A DNA stretch of 64,000 nt from a candidate division KSB1 bacterium (GTDB lineage Bacteria; Zhuqueibacterota; Zhuqueibacteria; JANLFK01; Oleimicrobiaceae): assembly GCA_024655945.1 (NCBI GenBank), contig JANLFK010000001.1, positions 496,001-560,000 of the forward strand, given 5' to 3'. Below the pieces are notes generated by a model that was not told where the DNA came from, made no database searches, and worked only from the letters and a program-made list of their open reading frames with translations. Positions within the stretch are counted from its first letter, which is position 1, and each line of letters opens with the position of its first letter. The position numbers and the translations under genes are program-made. Shown here piece after piece: positions 28,043 to 39,480 of the stretch.

Positions 28043-30391
28043 TCAGAACGGCCGCATCATGCGCGGTTGGGCGCTGGGGAAGATGCGCCCCAACACCTCC
28101 CGCAGATTGCCGCCCAAAAGGTCGGTGATCTCGCGCTCGGCCCATCCCTCCTCTTTCAGGGCGATGGTCAGTTCCAGCATGCGATCCAACTCCGCCACGC
28201 GCAACGGCTGGCCAAAGTCAGGATAGAGGGTCAAACTCTTCGGGCCGAGCTGCTCCCGCAACTCGCGGAGCTTGGCAACGGTGGCGGCCGACCCCTCCGC
28301 AGGGTCGTACGGCACGGCCAGTAGGGCGCCATTCTCCTTCAACTTCTGGCCTACTGAGTCGCTCACTGCAGCGACGCCCGCCACCACCACCGGCGCCTTG
28401 CTCGCGGCCACCACCTGGCAGATGACCGACTCCGGCAGGTTCTGGAGGATGAGCAACATCTTCTGCTCATTGGCAATGGCCACAGCCTGCTTGCCCTCCT
28501 CTGTGAGCCCGTTCCGTGTGATCCAGGTGCCGTCGCAGCCATTCAGCACAAGAAAGCGGGCGCCCAATTTCCCTGCCACCGCCAGAAATTGCAGGTCGCC
28601 ATGCACCGTGCGTGCACCATCCAGGCCCACCAATGCCGCGGTCTTTTCGCGGCGCGAACTGAACATCATGGCCATGGCCCGGTCAAGCCGAGAGGGATCG
28701 CCCACCTCCTTGCTCGCCTGCTCCAAGGAGCGCACGACGTTGACCAGCTGATCAGAGGGCCTGAGCAGGGAGTCAAACGGCACGCTCACGAACTGCAGGT
28801 CGATCCACTCATCCTGCAGCGAGTCGAGCACGGCCATGCCTGGCGTGTAGGGGAGCGGGTGCAGATTGGCAACGACCGCCGATTTGTGGATGTAGCGGGG
28901 GAGCCGCTTTTCGACGATCAGCTCCCCTTCGTGGTCGGCAAGGAGCAGCGCCGTCTTGTAGACAAAGCGCGCCACCTTGCCCATCAGCTCGGCATCGATC
29001 TTTTCGGCATCATCGCTTGGATGGTGATAATTCGGGTGCGCATCGAACGGCGAGGTCATGAGCGCAAAGGCCGGCACGCCGCGCGTGATGAACGGCGTGT
29101 GGTCGCTGCCGCCCGGGCCGCCGCGGCTGGCTTCGATGAACTCCAGCTCTTCTGGCGTGAGGTTTTCCCTGATCAGCCCCCACAGCTCAGGCGCATAGTA
29201 GATGCCGGGAAAGCCCAGCTTCTTGCCCAAGCCCACCATGTCCATGTTCAAGTTGGCGACGGTCTTTTCGATGGGAAAGCGGGGGTGCTCGGCGTAGTAG
29301 CGGGAACCCAGCAGGCCGCGTTCCTCTCCGCCCCAGCAAGCGAAGACGATGCTCCTGCGCGGCTGCACCCCGTTGCGCGCCATCACGCGCGCCACCTCCA
29401 GCACGGTCGCCGCGCCAGAGGCATTGTCGTCGGCGCCGTTGTAGACCTCCCCGTACTGCACGCCGACATGGTCTAAGTGGCCGCCCAGAACAATAGCCTC
29501 CTCACGCAATTGCGGGTCGCTGCCTGGGAGCACGGCGATCACGTTTTTCCCCTTGCGGTTGGGGTCAAACACCACCTTCACGGAAAGCTCGGCTTTCTTG
29601 CCGGTTGTGTGCGACATGGGCTTGAGTTCTTTGTCCAATTTCTCCTGCTCAGCGCGCATCCGACGGTCAAACTGGCGCTTCGCCTCTTTGTCGCCGATCA
29701 AAAGGAACTGCGCGACTCTGTCGCTGACGGCGAAGGCCAGGAAGCCGGGTTTGTAGTTGCCGGGACGGAGTCGCCAGCGCCAGGCGCTGCGATCTTCCTG
29801 GCGGAAATGGGCGCACATGAGCATGCCCACGGCCCCATGCTGCACCGCCATGGCCGCCTTGGCGCTGTCGCTTGCCAACGCTCCCCACTTGGCCTCCTGG
29901 TCGCCCGGGCAGCCATGCATGAGCAAGACCACTTTGCCGCGCGTGTTCACCCCCGCATATTCGTCCAGGCCCTTCTCCGGGGCACTGATCCCGTAGCCCA
30001 CAAAGACGACCTCGGCGCCGACTTTGCCTCCCCCTGAATAGGCCATCACGCGAAAGTCCTCCTCCTGGAACGAAAAAGGCCGCCCAGCTACTCTCAGCGT
30101 CGGCACTTCGATGTCGGCTTGATAGAACTCAAACGGAAACTCCTGGAAATAGGTGCCGTTGTCGCCGCCCGGTTGCAGGCCCCATTCGCGAAAATGCGCC
30201 GCCACCCAGGCTGCCGCCTTCGCAAAACCCGGCGTGCCAGTATCCCTCCCTTGCAGGGCGTCGCTGGCTAAATAGGTCACGTACGACTTGGCGGTCTCCC
30301 CGTTGGGGAGCTCCTGCGCCACCAGCGGCAAGGCCACCAGCGCGATGACCACCAGGATCAACGTCGCCTTTGCTGCATGCGTGCGCTTCAT
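28043..30391 (-). CDS. Secreted M28 aminopeptidase fused to a degenerate M19 (membrane dipeptidase) domain
   Basis: A 782-residue exported protein. The start at 30391 has GGGAG eight bases upstream and begins a signal peptide (ATLILVVIALVALPLVAQ); ATG 30406 is possible. Residues about 25-290 hold the M28 N-terminal segment with an inserted PA domain (GKVVLLMHGCPGDQEAKWG, AMAVQHGAVGML). The M28 core has its zinc ligands: GGHLDHVG, YNGADDNASG, CWGGEERGLLGS, LNMDMVG and NYHHPSDD. The last 260 residues align by eye with M19 dipeptidases (TAALVGLDGARTVHGDL, GLTEEGKQAVAIANEQ, ITDLLGGNLREVLGRIF) but the metal-binding Glu and His positions are lost. The neighbouring upstream gene is an amidohydrolase whose stop lies 20 bases away. 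Confidence 0.85.
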   Translation of the reverse strand: MKRTHAAKATLILVVIALVALPLVAQELPNGETAKSYVTYLASDALQGRDTGTPGFAKAAAWVAAHFREWGLQPGGDNGTYFQEFPFEFYQADIEVPTLRVAGRPFSFQEEDFRVMAYSGGGKVGAEVVFVGYGISAPEKGLDEYAGVNTRGKVVLLMHGCPGDQEAKWGALASDSAKAAMAVQHGAVGMLMCAHFRQEDRSAWRWRLRPGNYKPGFLAFAVSDRVAQFLLIGDKEAKRQFDRRMRAEQEKLDKELKPMSHTTGKKAELSVKVVFDPNRKGKNVIAVLPGSDPQLREEAIVLGGHLDHVGVQYGEVYNGADDNASGAATVLEVARVMARNGVQPRRSIVFACWGGEERGLLGSRYYAEHPRFPIEKTVANLNMDMVGLGKKLGFPGIYYAPELWGLIRENLTPEELEFIEASRGGPGGSDHTPFITRGVPAFALMTSPFDAHPNYHHPSDDAEKIDAELMGKVARFVYKTALLLADHEGELIVEKRLPRYIHKSAVVANLHPLPYTPGMAVLDSLQDEWIDLQFVSVPFDSLLRPSDQLVNVVRSLEQASKEVGDPSRLDRAMAMMFSSRREKTAALVGLDGARTVHGDLQFLAVAGKLGARFLVLNGCDGTWITRNGLTEEGKQAVAIANEQKMLLILQNLPESVICQVVAASKAPVVVAGVAAVSDSVGQKLKENGALLAVPYDPAEGSAATVAKLRELREQLGPKSLTLYPDFGQPLRVAELDRMLELTIALKEEGWAEREITDLLGGNLREVLGRIFPSAQPRMMRPF

Positions 30392-30410
30392 CTGTTCGTC
30401 TCCCATTCGC

Positions 30411-32087
30411 TTAGTCCTTCTGGTACACGACCTTTCCGCCGACAATGGTGAGCACCACCTCAGTGGTGAGCATCTCTTCAGGAGGAATCGACAGCAAGTC
30501 CTTTGACAAAATCACAATGTCCGCATACTTGCCAGGCTCGATGGACCCCTTCACCTCTTCTTGGAACTCGGCAATGGCCGCGCCGAGCGTGTAGAGGTAG
30601 ATGGCCTCCTCGATGGTCAAACGCTGGTCCGGGAACCATCCGCCTGGGGGCTCGTGCGTGTCGATGCTTTGCCTGGTGACTGCAGAGTAGAGGCCGCGCA
30701 TAGGGTCGAGGGGCTCCACGGGCCAGTCGGTGCCGAAGCAGATCTTGCCACCGGCGTCGAGGATGCGCCGCCAAGCATATGCGCCTTTGCACCGCTCGTG
30801 GCCGATGCGTTGTTCAGCCCAGCGCATGTCCGAGGTGCAGTGGGTGGGCTGCATGGAGGCAATGACCCCCAGCTCGGCCAGGCGTGGGATGTCCACCAGC
30901 CTGAGCACCTGCGCGTGTTCTAAGCGGTGCCGGCTGTCGCGGACACCAAAGCGCCGCTGCGCCTCCTCAAAGGCGTTGAGGGCCATCCAGTTGGCGCGCG
31001 AGCCGATGCAGTGCAGCCCTACCTGAAAGCCGAGGCTGTCGGCGGTGCACACCATGGCGGTGAGCTTCTCCTGGTCAATCTGCGGGATACCCACATTGCC
31101 CGGTTCGTCCTCGTAGCCCTCAAAGAAGTAGGCGGTACGGGAGCCCAGAGTGCCGTCGACAAAGCCCTTGAGCAGGCCAAGGCGGAGGCAGCGCCCGTCA
31201 CAGAAGCGCTGGTTTTCTCGATGAACCTTTTGGAGCAGAGTGGGCTGCGCGGCAAGGCCAAAGTCCAACCACTCGGTAACCCGGACGGTCAGCTCGCCGC
31301 GGTCCAGAAACTGCCTGTACAAGCGTACTGACGAGACACCTGAATTGTCCTGGACGGAGGTAACACCCAGCCTGCGGGCCTCGGCGAGCGCCTTGCGCAC
31401 CGCTTCCCGCTCCTGCTCGGCGGTAGGCGGTGGTACGACGCGTGCCACCAAGGAAGAGGCAGCCTCCTTGAGGATGCCCGTGGGCTCGCCTGTCAAAGGA
31501 TCCCTCACGATCTGGCCACCCGGCGGGTCGGGGGTCTCACGCGTAATCCCGGCCCGGGCCAGGGCCAGAGAATTTGCCCAGCCCACGTGCCCGTCGACTC
31601 TGGTCAGATAGACCGGGTTGTCCGGGCTGACCTTGTCCAACAGGCCCTTGTGCGGCCAGGTGCCTTTGTTGAACAGCGTGTGGTCCCAGCCGCGTCCGGT
31701 GACCCACTGCCCGGGGCCAAGCTCGGCCACCTTGGCTGCCACCCGCTGCTGCACCTCTTCAGGCGTGCGACAGCCGTCCAGCACCACCTGCAGCAGGGCG
31801 GCGCCGCCACTCCTGAAGTGCAGGTGAGCGTCGTTGAACCCGGGCATCACCAGCCTGCCCTCGGCATCGATCACGGTGGTCCTACTGCCGCGCCGAGCGA
31901 GGATATCCGCGTTGCTGCCCAGGGCGACAATCTTGTCGTCCTGCACCGCCACGGCCTCCGCCAGTGGCTGTTGTGCGTTGACGGTCCAGACCTTGCCATT
32001 GATGATGATCAAGTCCGCGCTGCGGCCGCAGCCGCTTGCCAGCAGGCCAAGCAAGACGGCCAGTAGGACGAACCTCCTGGTCTTCAT
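30411..32087 (-). CDS. Amidohydrolase (YtcJ-like, Amidohydro_3) lipoprotein
   Basis: A 558-residue metal-dependent hydrolase anchored by a lipoprotein signal (LLAVLLGLLASGCG). The N-terminal strand ADLIIINGKVWTVN and C-terminal SIEPGKYADIVILSKDLL form the small composite domain. The barrel has the metal HxH (FNDAHLHF), then GFVDGTLGSRTAYFFEGY, GLHCIGSRAN, HRLEHAQVL and CFGTDWPVEPLDP. In most YtcJ-like proteins the third element reads HAIGDRA; here it is HCIGSRA, so Asp is replaced by Ser. The substrate is unknown; imidazolonepropionase- or N-acyl-amino-acid-like hydrolysis is typical of relatives. It is co-directional with, and 20 bases before, the M28 fusion gene and has a predicted promoter at 32121-32149. 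Confidence 0.88.
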   Translation of the reverse strand: MKTRRFVLLAVLLGLLASGCGRSADLIIINGKVWTVNAQQPLAEAVAVQDDKIVALGSNADILARRGSRTTVIDAEGRLVMPGFNDAHLHFRSGGAALLQVVLDGCRTPEEVQQRVAAKVAELGPGQWVTGRGWDHTLFNKGTWPHKGLLDKVSPDNPVYLTRVDGHVGWANSLALARAGITRETPDPPGGQIVRDPLTGEPTGILKEAASSLVARVVPPPTAEQEREAVRKALAEARRLGVTSVQDNSGVSSVRLYRQFLDRGELTVRVTEWLDFGLAAQPTLLQKVHRENQRFCDGRCLRLGLLKGFVDGTLGSRTAYFFEGYEDEPGNVGIPQIDQEKLTAMVCTADSLGFQVGLHCIGSRANWMALNAFEEAQRRFGVRDSRHRLEHAQVLRLVDIPRLAELGVIASMQPTHCTSDMRWAEQRIGHERCKGAYAWRRILDAGGKICFGTDWPVEPLDPMRGLYSAVTRQSIDTHEPPGGWFPDQRLTIEEAIYLYTLGAAIAEFQEEVKGSIEPGKYADIVILSKDLLSIPPEEMLTTEVVLTIVGGKVVYQKD

Positions 32088-32120
32088 AGCGCAGTCTCCT
32101 CCTGGGTTCGGGTCTTGCGC

Positions 32121-32149
32121 AATATAAGAATCGTTGCCAAAGAATGCAA
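32121..32149 (-). promoter_or_regulatory. Predicted promoter of the amidohydrolase-M28 operon
   Basis: Minus strand: TTGCAT (32144-32149), 17-base spacer, TATATT (32121-32126), with a leader of about 27 bases to the ATG at 32087. It is divergent from the promoter at 32289-32317, 140 bases away. Confidence 0.65.
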
Positions 32150-32288
32150 GAGAAATCCTGCAATTTTTGCGGCGTGTCGTGCGTCCGGCTCACACCCTGG
32201 CCAAGCCTCGGGCTGGCGCCCTACGAGGCTGTGTGAGGGTCTCCACAAGTCTTCGCCGGCCCGGGCGCTGCTTCGCTGTGCTTTTCCC

Positions 32289-32317
32289 TTGACATTGCCC
32301 CAGGAATTGCGTACAAT
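32289..32317 (+). promoter_or_regulatory. Near-consensus promoter of the inhibitor-protease unit
   Basis: TTGACA (32289-32294), 17-base spacer, TACAAT (32312-32317). Transcription from about 32324 gives a 208-base leader before the inhibitor gene. No known riboswitch fold was recognised in the leader. Confidence 0.7.
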
Positions 32318-32531
32318 AGCACGGAAACATGGGCCGCCCGGCGCCTCAGCTCCACATGACGGACATGGGAGGGGCAGGCAAGCACAGCCGGCCCAGGCCA
32401 CCACCTCGGGCCAGAAGCTGCCAGGTGCAACCGGGCTGGCAATGGCGCCCGGGAAGTGTGGCCGAGGCGTGTCGCGGGCTGCTCGGTGTGCCGATTGTCA
32501 ATTGGGAAACCCTTGCGCAAAGGAGCGCACC

Positions 32532-32909
32532 ATGCGCCTGTTCGCCATTCTCATCGTAGCTGTTGCCCTTGGCAGATGCAACAGCCAGGGGGAACGAATG
32601 TTGCTCACCAAGGCCGACCACGGCAGAGAAGTGCGCGTTCGCCAGGGCCAGGAAATCGCGCTCACCTTGGAAGGAAATCCCACCACCGGCTTCACCTGGG
32701 AAGTGGCCGAAATCGACTCGGCCACCATTGTCCAGGCGAAAGAGGTGGAGTACGTGCCGCGCTCCAACCTCATGGGGGCGCCGGGGACTTTTACCTTCCG
32801 CTTCAAGGCAGTGAAGAATGGGGTGGCGACTCTGCGCCTGGCGTACCGGCGGCCATGGGAGAAAGAAGCACCGGCCGACACTTTCAGCGTGCGCATCGTG
32901 GTCAAGTGA
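32532..32909 (+). CDS. Chagasin-type (I42) cysteine-protease inhibitor, exported
   Basis: A 125-residue protein; start at 32532 after AAAGGAGCG. A hydrophobic leader (LFAILIVAVALGRC) suggests export, possibly with lipid on Cys16, though the lipobox is imperfect. The three inhibitory loops that define the chagasin/ICP (I42) family are all present in order: NPTTGFTW at 49-56, the glycine loop MGAPGTF around 81-87, and RRPW at 106-109. These loops fill the active-site cleft of papain-like proteases. The papain-like protease gene begins 108 bases downstream on the same strand, from a shared promoter, so the protease is the obvious target, perhaps to protect the cell during export. That pairing is inference. 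Confidence 0.92.
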   Translation: MRLFAILIVAVALGRCNSQGERMLLTKADHGREVRVRQGQEIALTLEGNPTTGFTWEVAEIDSATIVQAKEVEYVPRSNLMGAPGTFTFRFKAVKNGVATLRLAYRRPWEKEAPADTFSVRIVVK

Positions 32910-33017
32910 GCAGGACGGCCGCGCCAGGCACCCTTGCCCTGCACTGAAGAGACCTGAGCATTGCTCGGCAGGCGGCCGTATCTGTTGCTTCGCAGCCTAA
33001 GCAGTGGAGGTGGGAAC

Positions 33018-33980
33018 ATGCGACGCACCCTCTTTGTGTTCTTGGCCCTGCTGCTGGTGTGCAGCGCCCTGCTTGCCCAGCAGCTCACGCAGGCACAGAT
33101 CGAAGCGCACCTGCAGCGATTGCAGACGGAACTGGCCAGCGGGCGTTACTCCTTCACGGTCGGTGCCAATCCTGCACTGAGCTTCACCCTGGAGCAACTC
33201 TGTGGGTTGCGAGAAGCACCCGATTGGCGCAAGACGGCCCGGCAGCGCTCCTTAGCCACGGTGCGGCCCGCGCCGCTGCGCGCCATTGAAGAACGCGTGG
33301 CCCTCCCCTCTTCCTGGGACTGGCGGCAGCACAACGGGGTTAGTCCGGTGCGCGACCAAGATGGCTGCGGCAGCTGCTGGGCCTTTGCCACCGTCGCTTC
33401 TTTGGAGTCGGTACTGCTCATCAAACAGTCCTTGCTCACCGACCTCTCCGAGCAGTACCTGGTCTCCTGCAACGCCAAGGGGTGGGGCTGCAACGGCGGC
33501 TGGTGGGCGCACGACATGCTGGTGAGTCCGGGTGCGGTGCTGGAGGCCGATTTCCCTTACGTGGCCAGCGATGTGCCGTGCGGAGGGCCGTACAACTACC
33601 CCCACAAGCTGAACGGCTGGGCCTATGTGGACGGCGAGGACCGCGTGCCGGCAGTGGAGACCCTCAAACAGGCCATCTACGAGTATGGGCCGGTGTGCGC
33701 GGCGGTGTACGTGGGACCCTTCTTTCAGGCCTACACAGGCGGCGTGTTCGACAAGAACGAGGTACCCCAGGGCGGGCTATTCAGCTGCTGCCCGGCGCCC
33801 GCTTCGGTCAACCATGCCATCTTCATCATCGGCTGGGACGATAGCAAGGGGGCCTGGCTGCTCAAGAACTCCTGGGGCACTGGCTGGGGCGAGACCTGCG
33901 GCTATGGCGCGGAACGCGGCTACATGTGGATCAAGTACGGGACGAGCAACGTCGGCTACGCCGCAGTGGTCGCCTGGTAA
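33018..33980 (+). CDS. Papain-like (C1A) cysteine protease, exported
   Basis: A 320-residue secreted endopeptidase. The ATG at 33018 has GGAGGTGGG upstream and a signal peptide follows (FVFLALLLVCSALLAQ). Residues about 20-95 are a short propeptide; the mature enzyme probably begins near LPSSWDWRQHNGVSPVRDQ. The catalytic residues are present: Cys120 (DGCGSCWAFA), His266 (VNHAIFIIGWD), Asn284 (LLKNSWGTGWGE), with the oxyanion Gln before the Cys. Extra Cys residues (CNAKGWGCNGG, FSCCPAP) suggest disulfides. No C-terminal sorting domain is visible. It lies after the I42 inhibitor in one unit and is closed by a strong terminator at 34013-34055. Confidence 0.95.
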   Translation: MRRTLFVFLALLLVCSALLAQQLTQAQIEAHLQRLQTELASGRYSFTVGANPALSFTLEQLCGLREAPDWRKTARQRSLATVRPAPLRAIEERVALPSSWDWRQHNGVSPVRDQDGCGSCWAFATVASLESVLLIKQSLLTDLSEQYLVSCNAKGWGCNGGWWAHDMLVSPGAVLEADFPYVASDVPCGGPYNYPHKLNGWAYVDGEDRVPAVETLKQAIYEYGPVCAAVYVGPFFQAYTGGVFDKNEVPQGGLFSCCPAPASVNHAIFIIGWDDSKGAWLLKNSWGTGWGETCGYGAERGYMWIKYGTSNVGYAAVVAW

Positions 33981-34012
33981 CCCCCAAGACCACGCCTGAC
34001 AAGAGGCAGAAG

Positions 34013-34055
34013 CGCAGGTGGGATGGCTTAGAGCACCATCCCACCTGCGAGTTTT
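34013..34055 (+). terminator. Rho-independent terminator of the inhibitor-protease unit
   Basis: A perfect 14-bp stem (34013-34026 with 34036-34049), nine-base loop, then GTTTT after one A. It lies 33 bases after the protease stop codon. The opposite strand lacks a T run, so it acts on the plus strand. Confidence 0.85.
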
Positions 34056-34083
34056 GCCCATGTCGGAGTTATCCCGCGAAGGC

Positions 34084-37000
34084 CTATTTCCTCACCCGCA
34101 CCGGATAGGGCGGGCGCTGCGGCTTGCGGGGCGGGTTCTTCTCCAGTTCGACCATGATGAGTTCAATGGCTTTCTCAAGCTGGGGGTCGTGGCCGGCAAT
34201 CACTTTGGCCGGCTCCTGTTCCACCTCATGATCGGGAGGCACGCCTTCGTTTTCCACGACGAAACCCTCTTCCGTCCAGATGGCCAAGTTGGGCGCCGTC
34301 ACGTAGCCGCCGTCCATGAGCACCGGGAAGCCGAGGATGCCCACCAGACCGCCCCAGGTCCGCTTGCCCACCAGCGGGCCCAGGCCCAATTTGCGGAACA
34401 TCCATGGCAGCAGGTCACCTCCCGAGCCGGCGTTCTCATCGATGAGCATCACCTTGGGGCCAAAGATCGCACCACTGGGCGTCACCAGGTCCTGCCCGTA
34501 GCGCAACGCCCAATTGCAGATGTACGGGCGCCGCAGGTGGTCGATGTAATAGTCCGCCACTTGCCCGCCACCGTTGAACCGCTCATCGATGATGATGGCC
34601 TCTTTGTTGGTCTGCGGGAAGAAGTAGCGTTTGAAATAGGTGTGCCCCAACCTGGCGGTGTTCGGCACGTACACGTACGCCACTCGCCCCGCGGTGGCGG
34701 CGTCCACCTTGCGGATGTTGCTCTCCACCCAGTCGCGGTTGCGCAGGTCGCTTTCGTCCTTGATGGGCACCACCTGCAGCGTGCGCGACCCCACGCCGTC
34801 CGGGCGCGGGCCAACGGTGATCTCCACGATCTTGCCGGCGGTGTTCTCGAAGCGGCTGAAAAGGTTCTCCGGTGGGCGCAAGTCCTTGCCATTGACCGCC
34901 AACAGGTACTCCCCCGCCTGCACGTCGATGCCCGGCTGCTTGAGCGGAGACTCCAAGTCGGGATTCCAGTTCAATCCGCCATAGACCTTGGCAAAGCGAT
35001 AGCGGCCATTGTCGATGACATAGTCCGCTCCGAGCAGACCGCAGGGTACGCGCTTCGGCTTGGCAAGCTGGTCGCCGCCGCTCACGCGATGGTGTCCCAC
35101 TGCCAGCTCGCTGCACATCCACTGGATGAGCCTGTTTAGGTCATTGCGGCAGGCAAGATCCGGCAAAAAAGCCGCATACTTCTGGCGCATGGCTTGCCAG
35201 TCGGCCCCGTGGAAGTTGGAGTCATAGAAGTAGTCGCGATTGATGCGCCAGGCTTCGTGGAAGATCTGCCGCCATTCGGCCTGCGGCTCGATGCGCACCT
35301 CGATGGCGTCGACGTCCAGCTTCCCCTTGCTCGTGTCAATTTTGTCGGCCAGGTCGGTGATGAACCACGACTGCCCGGTGCGGCACAGGAGCTTCTTGCC
35401 GTCCCGAGAAAGCTGGTAGTCATCGACCTTTTCCAAAATGACCTTATCCTCTCGCTTGTCGAGGTCATAGTGGTGCAGCTTCGTGGGACCGGCAGGCACG
35501 GTCTCGAGGAAGTAAAGCTGTCCCTCCTTGCCCACCTGCAACTCTCGGTAGTCTGCCTCCGGCAGCGGCAGCGCCACGATGCGTTCGTTCATGCCGGCAA
35601 AGTCGATGACCAGCTTCGCCGGAGGTTTTTTCTCCACCTCCTTTGCCTTCTCCGCCTTGTCCTCTTTCTCCTCCTCAGGCTTGCCCCTTTCTTCATCGCT
35701 CTGCCTGGCCAACGGCGAAGGGGTGCCTTTTTGCAGTGAGGCAAGGTAGATGGCGTTCTTCATGCGCACGTCGGCGTTGGACATGGCAAACCAATGCTTC
35801 ACCGGGCCGGCGTCGGTGGAAGCGAAGAAGTAGAGGAACTTGCCGCTGGGGTCGAACACCGGGTCGCTGGCCTCGGCCATGCCATCGGTAACAGGCCAAG
35901 ACTTGCCCTGCTCGATGTCGTACACGAAGATCTGCTGAAAGTAGGCGGTGTTCGTCAGCGTGTAGGCGACCCAGCGGGAGTCTGGCGACCAGGCGCCGCG
36001 AATGGTGCCAAAGGCACCTGGCATGTAGAGGGCCTCCTGCGCGATCTTAGTGATGCGGCCGGTCGCAAGGTCCAACCAGAAGAGCGTGCGAGCGTTGTCG
36101 GCAAAGCAAAGCTTCTTGCTATCTGGGGACCAGGAGATGGCGTTGTAGAAACCGGCGCCGCCCAGCGGCACCACGCGCGGAGCCCCTTTGCCATCCTGCG
36201 GCAAAATGTGCAGGGCATATTCGCCGGAGGCATCCGAGAAGTAGGCGATGAACTTGCCGTCCGGGGACCAGGCTGGGAAGCGCTCATGCACCCCTGGGGT
36301 CGCGGTCAGGTTGCGCGGGTCTCCCTTCTCTGCGGGCACCGTGACAATCTCGCCCCGGAATTCGAAGACTGCCCGCGTCCCCGAGGGAGAGATGTCGCGG
36401 CTGCGAATCCACTCGGCGCCTTTCACATAGCGAGGCCGCAGCTCCAAAAGGTCCGCAGCCACTCCTACCCGCAGCCTTTGCACCTGCCCGCTGACGAGGT
36501 CGTAGGTCTGCAGGTAGCCGGCCTGCTCGAAAATGATCACGCCCGCGCCGTAGGAGGCATCAAGCACCGGAAAGTCGGAAAAGAAGGTGATCTGCCGCAC
36601 TTCCTTGCTGACGGTGTCGTAGCAAAAGAGATTGAACTCGCCGTTCCGGTCGGAGCGGAAATAGACCTTGTCTCCCACCCACATCGGATCGGTGTCGTTG
36701 CACCTGCCATCCGGCTGCGGGATCTTGTCCACGGAATGGTCCGCGAAGGTGTACAGCCAGATCGTGGCCACGGTGCCGCCCCGATAGTGCTTCCATTGCT
36801 GAAAGACCTCGCGTACCGGCAGGTAGGCCAGGCGCTTGCCGTCGGGCGAATAGCAGGCCTTGAAGCCCACGGGCAGCTCGAGCTGCTGCGGCCAGCCACC
36901 CTCCACCGGCACGGTAAAGAGCTGACAGTAGCGGCTGGTGAAGGAGAAGCGGGGCGAGTAGAAGAGCACCGCCTTGCCGTCCGGGGTAAAATCGCAGACC

Positions 37001-37338
37001 ACGTCCGGCGCCGGGTGATGGGTCAGCCGGATAGGCACGCCACCGGAGGCCGGCACAAGGAAGATATCCGTGTTGCCGTCGTACTCGCCACTGAAGGCGA
37101 TCCACTTGCCATCCGGCGAAAAGACCGGGTTGAATTCGTTCCCCTCACCAGAGGTCAGGCGCCGCACATTGCTGCCATCCCGGTCTGCCACGTACAGGTC
37201 ACCGGCGTAGGCAAAGGCAATCTGGGTGGCGCTGATGGCCGGTTGGCTCAGCATCCGGGTGTCTGTGGTGTCAATGGCCAAAGCCACGGCCACGGTGAGG
37301 AGCAGTGCCGCCGCGGCGACCAACGTCACGCGACGCAT
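34084..37338 (-). CDS. Tricorn-like S41 protease, exported
   Basis: A 1084-residue protein with a signal peptide (LVAAAALLLTVAVALA), so likely periplasmic rather than cytosolic. Order: a six-bladed propeller (about 35-315; FNPVFSPDGKWIAFSGEYDG), a second propeller (about 325-560; FPAWSPDGKFIAYFSD, ISWSPDSKKLCFAD), a charged linker (DEERGKPEEEKEDKAEKAKE), a tricorn C1 domain, a PDZ (about 780-860; LKQPGIDVQAGEYLLAVNGK) and the C2 S41 core. The catalytic Ser is Ser972 (ENAGSGGDLLPW) and the His is His749 (ELAVGHHRVSGGD). The residue before the His, Ser in archaeal tricorn, is Gly here. Tricorn relatives trim peptides released by larger proteases. Divergent neighbours are the C1A protease and, upstream, S46. 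Confidence 0.92.
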   Translation of the reverse strand: MRRVTLVAAAALLLTVAVALAIDTTDTRMLSQPAISATQIAFAYAGDLYVADRDGSNVRRLTSGEGNEFNPVFSPDGKWIAFSGEYDGNTDIFLVPASGGVPIRLTHHPAPDVVCDFTPDGKAVLFYSPRFSFTSRYCQLFTVPVEGGWPQQLELPVGFKACYSPDGKRLAYLPVREVFQQWKHYRGGTVATIWLYTFADHSVDKIPQPDGRCNDTDPMWVGDKVYFRSDRNGEFNLFCYDTVSKEVRQITFFSDFPVLDASYGAGVIIFEQAGYLQTYDLVSGQVQRLRVGVAADLLELRPRYVKGAEWIRSRDISPSGTRAVFEFRGEIVTVPAEKGDPRNLTATPGVHERFPAWSPDGKFIAYFSDASGEYALHILPQDGKGAPRVVPLGGAGFYNAISWSPDSKKLCFADNARTLFWLDLATGRITKIAQEALYMPGAFGTIRGAWSPDSRWVAYTLTNTAYFQQIFVYDIEQGKSWPVTDGMAEASDPVFDPSGKFLYFFASTDAGPVKHWFAMSNADVRMKNAIYLASLQKGTPSPLARQSDEERGKPEEEKEDKAEKAKEVEKKPPAKLVIDFAGMNERIVALPLPEADYRELQVGKEGQLYFLETVPAGPTKLHHYDLDKREDKVILEKVDDYQLSRDGKKLLCRTGQSWFITDLADKIDTSKGKLDVDAIEVRIEPQAEWRQIFHEAWRINRDYFYDSNFHGADWQAMRQKYAAFLPDLACRNDLNRLIQWMCSELAVGHHRVSGGDQLAKPKRVPCGLLGADYVIDNGRYRFAKVYGGLNWNPDLESPLKQPGIDVQAGEYLLAVNGKDLRPPENLFSRFENTAGKIVEITVGPRPDGVGSRTLQVVPIKDESDLRNRDWVESNIRKVDAATAGRVAYVYVPNTARLGHTYFKRYFFPQTNKEAIIIDERFNGGGQVADYYIDHLRRPYICNWALRYGQDLVTPSGAIFGPKVMLIDENAGSGGDLLPWMFRKLGLGPLVGKRTWGGLVGILGFPVLMDGGYVTAPNLAIWTEEGFVVENEGVPPDHEVEQEPAKVIAGHDPQLEKAIELIMVELEKNPPRKPQRPPYPVRVRK

Positions 37339-37392
37339 GGTAGGTCCCTCCCTAAGCCGCGAGGGGCGAGCCGGCGGCCCACCCCTCTTCGG

Positions 37393-39480
37393 TTACCTGA
37401 TTCCCTCAATCTCGTCGGCCAAGGCCGCGGCGTCGTAGAGCTTGCGCAACGCCTCGCTGATGTAGCCGGTGTGCACGGCCACGGCCCGGTTGGCCTCTTC
37501 GTCGTAGACAAAGCGCCCCACAAGACTTTCGATGTTGCCGTCAAAGATCAGGCCGACCACCTCGGCGCGCGCGCTGATGACCGGCGAGCCGGAGTTGCCA
37601 CCGATGATGTCGCAGGTGCTGACAAAGTTCACCGGCGTCGAGAGATCGAGACGGTCCTTGCGCTGCCAGAAGCGCTCCGGCAGGTCAAAGTCCTTTTCCC
37701 GGTCAAAGCTCAGCGCGCGGTCGTAAAGCCCGTAGAGCGTAGTCTTGTATGGCGCCTTGGTGCCGTTCATGGGATAGCCTTTCACCGCGCCATAGGAAAG
37801 CCGCAAGGTGAACGTGGCGTCCGGATAGGCCGATTTGCCGTAGACGGCAAAACGCGCCTGCGCGATTTTCTCGGCAGCGGGAGTGATCACGCTCTCCACG
37901 TGCTTCTTGTTCCACTCGATGTCGGCGCGCATCATCGGCTCCAATTTGCGCATGAGCACGATGAGGGGATCGTTGCAGGCCTGGAGTGCGCTCTCGCCGC
38001 CTTCGAGGAGCGACTTGCGGAAGGCCACGTCGGCAAGCTTGGTGCCCTGGATGAGCTCTGCCGCCACCTCCCGCGGCGAACGGCCGTTGAGCACCGTCTT
38101 GATGAAGGGATGGTCGGCGCCCAATTGAGCCAACGACAGCGCAAGTGCCCCGCCAAGGTTGGCTTCTTCGAGGTCGTGATAAATGGGTGCCGGCGACAGG
38201 AGGCGGAACTTGAGCTCATCCAGCTCGGAGTCGTGGTAACCAGGAAGCCTCTGCCCGTCTGGCTTCTTGACTTCGATGCTGTAGAAGACCAGGGTCGAGG
38301 CGAAGCCCGCCAGGCGGGAGCCCATGATGCGCGCGTAGAAGCGCTCCTTGGCCCTGGCTGCCTGCTTCTTGATGACGCGGGCCACCGTGTCCCAGGCGTC
38401 GCCATAGGCCTTCTTCCACTCCGGCTTGGAGGCGACCAGGGCGCGGAATTCATCCTCGGCCTTCTTGCGCTTGGCCATCAGCTTTGCATCTAAGAGGCCC
38501 TGATACTCGCCGGTGAGGGCCTTCTTGCTGTTTTCCAGGCCGAAGATCTGCACCAAGGCGCGCCGCTCCTGCTCCGGGCCGCGCTTGGCGTACTCGCGCA
38601 GAATGGCGATGCGCTTGTTGATGTAGTCCAGCAGCATCGGGTACTGGTAGTCGCGCTGGAAAAGGAGCTGCTCGTAGGTGAACAACCGGTCTGTGGAGCC
38701 AGGGTTCCCGGAGACGAAGACCAGCTCGCCGTCGCGTGCGCCCTGCGCGTTCCACTTGAAGTAGTGCTCGGAGTTCACCGGCTTGTCATTTTCGTAAACG
38801 CGGAAAAATGCCACGTCCAGATCGTAGCGCGGGTAGGTGAAGTTGTCAAAGTCGCCACCGAAGTAGGCCACCTGTCGCTCCGGGGCAAAGACCAGGCGCA
38901 CGTCCGTGTACTTCTTGTAGCGGTAGAGCCAGTACTCGCCGCCATGGTAGAGGCTGATGACATTAGAGCGGAGGCCCGTATTTTCGAGGCTCTCCTTTTC
39001 GATGGCGGCGATGGCTGCGCGCCGCGCCTCTAATGCCTGCTCGTCCTTCATGCCTGGAGTGACCGCCGCCCGCACGCGCGCAGTGACGTCTTCCATGGAG
39101 ACAAGCACGTTCACTTCCAGGTCGGGGCACTTGAGCTCCTCTTCCGGCGTGGCGGCATAAAAGCCCGTGGCCACATAGTCGCGCTCAGGCGTGGACACCT
39201 TCTGCAGCTGGCCCACCGCCACGTGATGGTTGGTCATCACCAGGCCGTGCGGACTGACAAACGACCCGGAGCCGCCGTCCATGAAGCGCACGCTCGCCAG
39301 GCGCACGTGCTCTAGCCACTCCTGCGTCGGGGTAAACCCGTAGCGCTCCTGCAGCAACTTGGTAGGGGGACTATCGAACGTCCACATGCCTTCGTCGGCC
39401 ACGCTGAGGTGGACCCAACAGGCAGCCAGGGCTAACGCCAGCAAAGCGCCACCGACCCGAGAAACACTCTTCCGGTACAT
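37393..39480 (-). CDS. S46 family dipeptidyl-peptidase (DPP7/DPP11-like)
   Basis: A 695-residue exported serine exopeptidase that releases dipeptides from the N-terminus of peptides; the family is found mostly in Bacteroidota and relatives that feed on protein. Signal peptide: GALLALALAACWVHLSVA. The mature N-terminus begins DEGMWTFDSPPTKLL, as is typical. The chymotrypsin-like triad is His86 (GLVMTNHHVAVG), Asp in GGDFDNFTYPRYDLDVAFF, and Ser in DIIGGNSGSPVI. The segment after the Ser reads GLIFDGNIESLVG; a Gly at that position is reported for DPP7-type enzymes and Arg for DPP11, so DPP7-like specificity (hydrophobic P1) is a hedged guess. It is upstream of the tricorn gene with a 54-base gap, so both may be one operon. 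Confidence 0.93.
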   Translation of the reverse strand: MYRKSVSRVGGALLALALAACWVHLSVADEGMWTFDSPPTKLLQERYGFTPTQEWLEHVRLASVRFMDGGSGSFVSPHGLVMTNHHVAVGQLQKVSTPERDYVATGFYAATPEEELKCPDLEVNVLVSMEDVTARVRAAVTPGMKDEQALEARRAAIAAIEKESLENTGLRSNVISLYHGGEYWLYRYKKYTDVRLVFAPERQVAYFGGDFDNFTYPRYDLDVAFFRVYENDKPVNSEHYFKWNAQGARDGELVFVSGNPGSTDRLFTYEQLLFQRDYQYPMLLDYINKRIAILREYAKRGPEQERRALVQIFGLENSKKALTGEYQGLLDAKLMAKRKKAEDEFRALVASKPEWKKAYGDAWDTVARVIKKQAARAKERFYARIMGSRLAGFASTLVFYSIEVKKPDGQRLPGYHDSELDELKFRLLSPAPIYHDLEEANLGGALALSLAQLGADHPFIKTVLNGRSPREVAAELIQGTKLADVAFRKSLLEGGESALQACNDPLIVLMRKLEPMMRADIEWNKKHVESVITPAAEKIAQARFAVYGKSAYPDATFTLRLSYGAVKGYPMNGTKAPYKTTLYGLYDRALSFDREKDFDLPERFWQRKDRLDLSTPVNFVSTCDIIGGNSGSPVISARAEVVGLIFDGNIESLVGRFVYDEEANRAVAVHTGYISEALRKLYDAAALADEIEGIR

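Follow-up and report, generated by a model that had tools for sequence, protein, structure and literature searches.

Relatives of a bacterial papain-type (C1A) protease were found in which a chagasin-family (I42) inhibitor domain is fused in frame to the enzyme, in place of its propeptide. In the window (the whole 64,000-nt stretch of candidate division KSB1 DNA that was analysed), the two families are encoded by separate, adjoining genes, and across the phylum this pair comes and goes as one unit. No earlier report of I42-C1A operons or fusions was found in the open-access full-text literature. The unit probably encodes an exported papain-type zymogen together with its cognate chagasin-type inhibitor, which would be held in the envelope and restrain prematurely active protease.

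The inhibitor and protease genes of the window

The I42 gene (32532-32909) and the C1A gene (33018-33980) form a two-gene unit on the + strand (Table 1), flanked on the - strand by an amidohydrolase gene upstream (30411-32087) and a tricorn-type protease gene downstream (34084-37338). The two genes are contiguous, share a strand, have opposite-strand genes on either side and are preceded by one conserved promoter, an arrangement that points to their co-transcription. Both are under purifying selection between congeners, with dN/dS of 0.09-0.16 for I42 and 0.06-0.08 for C1A, the higher-divergence congener pairs being near saturation of synonymous sites. A run of peptidase-type genes was also observed on the opposite (-) strand of the window at 28043-39480, including M28/M19-like, amidohydrolase, tricorn (with S41) and S46 genes.

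Table 1 Features of the inhibitor-protease unit, in window coordinates.
Feature	Position	Strand	Basis
Sigma-70-type promoter, TTGACA-17-TACAAT	32289..32317	+	11/12 consensus matches; conserved island in two congeners; predicted start
Leader, ~200 nt, with Shine-Dalgarno AAAGGAG at 32519-32525	32318..32531	+	Sequence
I42 chagasin-family cysteine protease inhibitor, 125 aa	32532..32909 (ATG 32532, stop 32909)	+	PF09394, E 3.1e-24
Export signal ending at Cys16 (LGRC), lipoprotein-like	32532..32579	+	Cys directly after the hydrophobic stretch in 11/13 phylum I42 proteins
Inhibitory loop NPTTGF	32676..32693	+	N49, P50, T52 and G53 invariant in 15 homologues
Glycine-loop variant GAPG	32775..32786	+	G82 invariant, G85 nearly so (15 homologues)
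Loop RRPW	32847..32858	+	R107 invariant; Y105 and E110 nearly so (15 homologues)
Spacer, 108 nt, with Shine-Dalgarno GGAGGTGG before the protease	32910..33017	+	Sequence
C1A papain-type protease with signal peptide, 320 aa	33018..33980 (ATG 33018, stop 33980)	+	PF00112, E 1.4e-44
Propeptide, ~75 aa, invariant LCG at 33198-33206	33078..33302	+	Segment replaced by I42 in fused relatives
Catalytic Cys120	33375..33377	+	Homologue alignment
Catalytic His266	33813-33815	+	Homologue alignment
Catalytic Asn284	33867-33869	+	Homologue alignment
Gln114	33357-33359	+	Homologue alignment
Hairpin, 14 bp, probable terminator between convergent genes	34013..34049	+	Fold energy

The first-pass annotation of this DNA had described a near-consensus promoter and one strong terminator. 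The promoter was borne out: its 11 of 12 consensus matches lie, with their surroundings, in an island conserved between the window and two congeners (G001 and G002), in which the flanking DNA has diverged. TTGACA is kept in both, and the -10 hexamer is TACAAT in G001 and TACCAT in G002. The leader is weakly conserved in G002, and the spacer between the two genes ranges from 11 to 157 nt in relatives. The hairpin at the 3' end is strong as a stem (folding energy of -44 kcal/mol at 33995-34065, z -7.8), but termination there is only probable because the stem is trailed by just four T, the terminator pattern scan did not call it at 34013-34049, and G002 retains the stem without a T tract.

The inhibitor belongs to the I42 family by its Pfam score (PF09394, 85.5 bits against a curated cut-off of 27.2), and its best PDB match was the Pseudomonas ICP 2wgn, followed by trypanosome ICP and chagasin. 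All three defining loops had been claimed for it. NPTTGF and RRPW are present as described, but the glycine loop is a GAPG variant rather than the GxGG of classical chagasins; GAPG occurs in most of the split and fused relatives. Characterized I42 proteins are active-site inhibitors of C1A proteases, with affinities from pM to 100 nM and broad specificity (PMC7863939), and the bacterial member Cip1 inhibits papain with a Ki of about 4 nM (PMC5014320).

Export signals are present in both protein sequences. That of the inhibitor, noted in the first reading as its own export signal, resembles a lipoprotein signal more than one for free secretion: a cysteine directly follows the hydrophobic stretch in most of the 13 phylum proteins, as read by eye from their N-termini. 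The lipobox is non-canonical, with Arg at position -1 in the window and a small residue there in only some relatives, and lipid anchoring is therefore uncertain.

The protease matched PF00112 with 153.2 bits (cut-off 20.7), carries the catalytic Gln, Cys, His and Asn, and has a signal peptide probably cut after ...ALLA. The complete Cys/His/Asn set reported earlier held up, as these residues and Gln114 are invariant in ten homologues, and the active site of the G002 protease was also intact when its sequence was read directly. No propeptide family was matched in the Pfam scan. The LCG motif suggests a cathepsin-B-type propeptide; that likeness gained no support from a profile of the propeptide, which had no match to procathepsin B in PDB. 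The structure model of the window protease, built from ten sequences, reached a pLDDT of only 36 and was unusable.

The module had been likened to a toxin-immunity (effector-immunity) pair, but no sign was seen of a protease delivered into other cells by a secretion system. Apart from its signal peptide and propeptide, the 320-aa protease is all catalytic domain and lacks a delivery domain, and the flanking genes encode peptidases and an amidohydrolase. The genome holds one I42 gene and two C1A genes, the second C1A being a long multidomain protein encoded elsewhere. C1A proteins of the phylum other than the window type (L002, which is G000:C4, and L011) are long and multidomain, and end in a NYPNPFN-type sorting-like segment.

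Linkage of the pair across the phylum

We profiled 82 genomes of the phylum, whose named records place them in candidate division KSB1 or Calditrichaeota; the named loci L053-L060 come from the same genomes and were counted once. I42 was found in 13 genomes, and in 12 of these a C1A gene lies directly downstream on the same strand (G000, G001, G002, G014, G021, G022, G047, G049, G051, G055, G056 and G067). In G055 the two genes are on separate contigs, and they were counted as neighbours because 141 nt are identical at the two contig ends, an overlap running from the inhibitor-gene end into the protease gene. The I42 gene of G067 is paired with a different, longer C1A that has a C-terminal sorting-like end (locus L011), so the pairing is not limited to one protease subtype. 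There were two exceptions: G026 has I42 without a full C1A in the genome, and G041 has an intact-looking C1A of the window type with a transporter-like gene as its upstream neighbour and no I42 found.

Counting window-type C1A, 11 of the 82 genomes have both genes, one has C1A only, two have I42 only and 68 have neither (Fisher 7e-11, with relatedness of the genomes left uncorrected). With one I42 and two C1A genes, as in the genome of the window, chance adjacency is on the order of 0.1-0.2% per genome, and the observed adjacency would arise by chance with P ~1e-32 at a rough 0.2% per genome, a figure that treats related, non-independent genomes as separate. Both genes are absent from G018 and G030, whose respective congeners G047 and G022 have both, and flanking genes are held in common only within a genus; the pair is therefore gained and lost as a unit.

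Peptidase genes (M28, S46, tricorn) abound around the pair in the window, and the adjacency might on this ground be accidental or a by-product of regional peptidase-gene clustering. The probability of this is negligible. The peptidase neighbours lie on the opposite strand and are absent near the pair outside the genus, whereas the pair itself is kept, and chance cannot account for adjacency in 12 of 13 genomes. Taken with the fusions described below, the linkage and the differing flanks outside the genus rule out accidental adjacency and plain peptidase clustering. The first-pass annotation had proposed a search for conserved I42-C1A neighbours as the check on its pairing; the adjacency is conserved in this phylum, and in other phyla the two domains are fused.

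Fused relatives and the exchange of the propeptide

Searching species genomes for relatives of the window C1A yielded 67 loci. At 19 of them, 20 proteins carry I42 and C1A in one open frame with I42 first (L074, L076, L084, L085, L087, L092, L093, L098-L100, L102, L104-L106, L109, L112, L114, L115 and L117), and L087 holds two such fusions in tandem. The hosts belong to Chloroflexota (Anaerolineae, Chloroflexia, Ardenticatenia and Thermoflexales), Myxococcota and Deltaproteobacteria. Both domains scored above the Pfam cut-offs in all seven fusions scanned. L111 looks like another fusion, cut by the contig start.

None of the 20 fusions has an LCG propeptide, compared with 40 of the 48 non-fused relatives that have a readable N-terminal region (Fisher 4e-11, uncorrected for relatedness), and I42 sits in the position of the propeptide. 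The I42 domain has thus supplanted the propeptide of the enzyme. In papain-type zymogens it is the propeptide that blocks the active site, and the replacement is strong indirect evidence that I42 would act on this C1A. Read most simply, I42 is able to do the job of the propeptide on this protease, and on that reading the pair encoded in trans in the window can be trusted as cognate. More tentatively, bacterial C1A enzymes might use I42 as an interchangeable inhibitory prodomain, one that serves as a backup in trans in one branch and has taken over as a fused propeptide in another; we put this at somewhat short of an even chance. If true, it would be a case of an inhibitor family turned zymogen prodomain.

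In the C1A tree the split pairs of the phylum form one supported clade and the fusions another. The fused domains also fall on one side of a branch in the I42 tree, but this tree, with few columns and weak support, is too weak to derive the fusion from a split pair. A model of a fused protein had both domains folded (pLDDT 81.5), with their relative placement not fixed (pTM 0.59), and a fold search gave only papain-type enzymes among the matches listed.

The position of I42 in the fusions also bears on whether the domain chiefly helps the protease to fold or to be secreted, as a propeptide in trans for which inhibition is secondary. Papain-like enzyme propeptides often assist folding, and in the fusions I42 stands exactly at the propeptide site with the LCG propeptide gone. 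The inhibitory loops are partly degraded in the fusions of Myxococcota and Deltaproteobacteria, in which the domain is nonetheless retained, and a helper function keeps some weight because of these proteins. It is unlikely, however, as the main role: the window protease has a propeptide of its own, so a second one should be needless; the window inhibitor, like most inhibitors of the phylum's split pairs and most Chloroflexota fusions, has intact NPTTG and RPWE loops; and the intact-looking protease of G041 comes without I42. The preferred reading remains a cognate inhibitor.

Other arrangements were also seen. An Aminicenantes genome (L069) has a separate I42 gene downstream of the C1A gene. 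Outside the phylum, free-standing I42 genes, including those of many Chloroflexota genomes, mostly do not adjoin a C1A gene; a minority do (G116 and G229, and L145, L148, L160 and L161 in Chloroflexota), which is above chance by a rough estimate. At L145, L148 and L160 the I42 and C1A genes converge tail to tail, which gives the pair a third arrangement. Several I42 domains per frame were observed in G406:C229:35954-37252 (four in 504 aa), L124, G453:C17 and G687:C39, and such open frames are possibly multi-headed inhibitors.

Free-standing inhibitors raise the question of whether the targets of I42 are papain-type proteases of other organisms (protists, predators or neighbours), the secreted digestive protease beside it sharing no more than its regulation. 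Plant proteases are inhibited by the chagasins of Pseudomonas, a genus in which most genomes lack C1A (PMC5014320); I42 is broad in specificity (PMC7863939); and no C1A gene adjoins the I42 gene of G026 or of many Chloroflexota genomes. For the unit described here we regard a foreign target as improbable, more so than a helper function, since fusion to the same type of protease, replacement of the propeptide and joint gain and loss of the genes all point to the neighbouring enzyme as the target.

Proposed role and known systems

The first-pass annotation had inferred that the inhibitor acts on its neighbour, and the cognate pairing gained support from the 12/13 adjacency in the phylum and the in-frame fusions elsewhere. 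Export, binding, inhibition and a protective purpose are read here from genes and sequences, and the following scheme is accordingly conditional. The two genes would be expressed as one transcript, with the inhibitor made first. The inhibitor would cross the inner membrane and probably stay in the envelope, possibly anchored by a lipid. The protease would be exported as a zymogen silenced by its own LCG propeptide, and on any molecule that lost this propeptide too early the inhibitor would plug the active-site cleft. Such restraint would end once the protease has left the envelope or outnumbers the inhibitor. Because the protease has its own propeptide, the inhibitor would be a second safeguard and not the sole one. 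In other phyla the same control would have been made intramolecular, with I42 fused in the propeptide's place.

What bacterial chagasins do is described as still to be worked out, and the lack of C1A in most Pseudomonas has led to the proposal that chagasins target foreign proteases (PMC5014320). The chagasin described here has an obvious partner of its own, adjoining across the phylum and fused in other phyla, which suggests that the enzyme it guards is the cell's own. I42 would thereby become the third unrelated inhibitor family known to be encoded as a guard beside papain-fold proteases, and a possible route from separate inhibitor to zymogen prodomain is suggested. Two small proteins, or a single natural fusion, make the guard function open to direct test.

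Co-encoded inhibitors of secreted papain-fold proteases are known from the staphopain/staphostatin pairs (SspBC and ScpAB; C47/I57) and SpeB/Spi (C10), in which, as proposed for the window, a cognate inhibitor stops premature protease activity. Staphostatin and Spi are unrelated to I42 and act in the cytoplasm, whereas the window inhibitor carries an export signal. As in pairs of this kind (SspBC, SpeB/Spi, Btp/Bti), the pairing holds across species, here in 12 of 13 phylum genomes. Protozoan chagasin/ICP and cruzipain-type proteases are from the same inhibitor and protease families as the window pair, and there the endogenous C1A is regulated; we know of no operon or fusion described for them. 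The protozoan chagasins lack a signal peptide (PMC5014320), unlike the window I42. Pseudomonas Cip1 and P. aeruginosa ICP (2wgn, the closest solved structure) are exported bacterial I42 proteins like that of the window, but most of their genomes have no co-encoded C1A and host proteases are targeted (PMC5014320), whereas the window I42 adjoins a C1A gene.

The Bacteroides Bfp/Bfi and Btp/Bti systems likewise place a papain-fold protease with a propeptide beside a small beta inhibitor (PMC3462683). Their inhibitors are exported, some as predicted lipoproteins, with the inhibitor gene upstream or downstream of the protease gene (PMC3462683). The families differ, being C10 protease and staphostatin-like inhibitor with co-transcription shown in Bacteroides (PMC3462683), and C1A and I42 with co-transcription inferred in the window. 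The exported staphostatin-like inhibitors are thought to catch prematurely matured C10 protease (PMC3462683).
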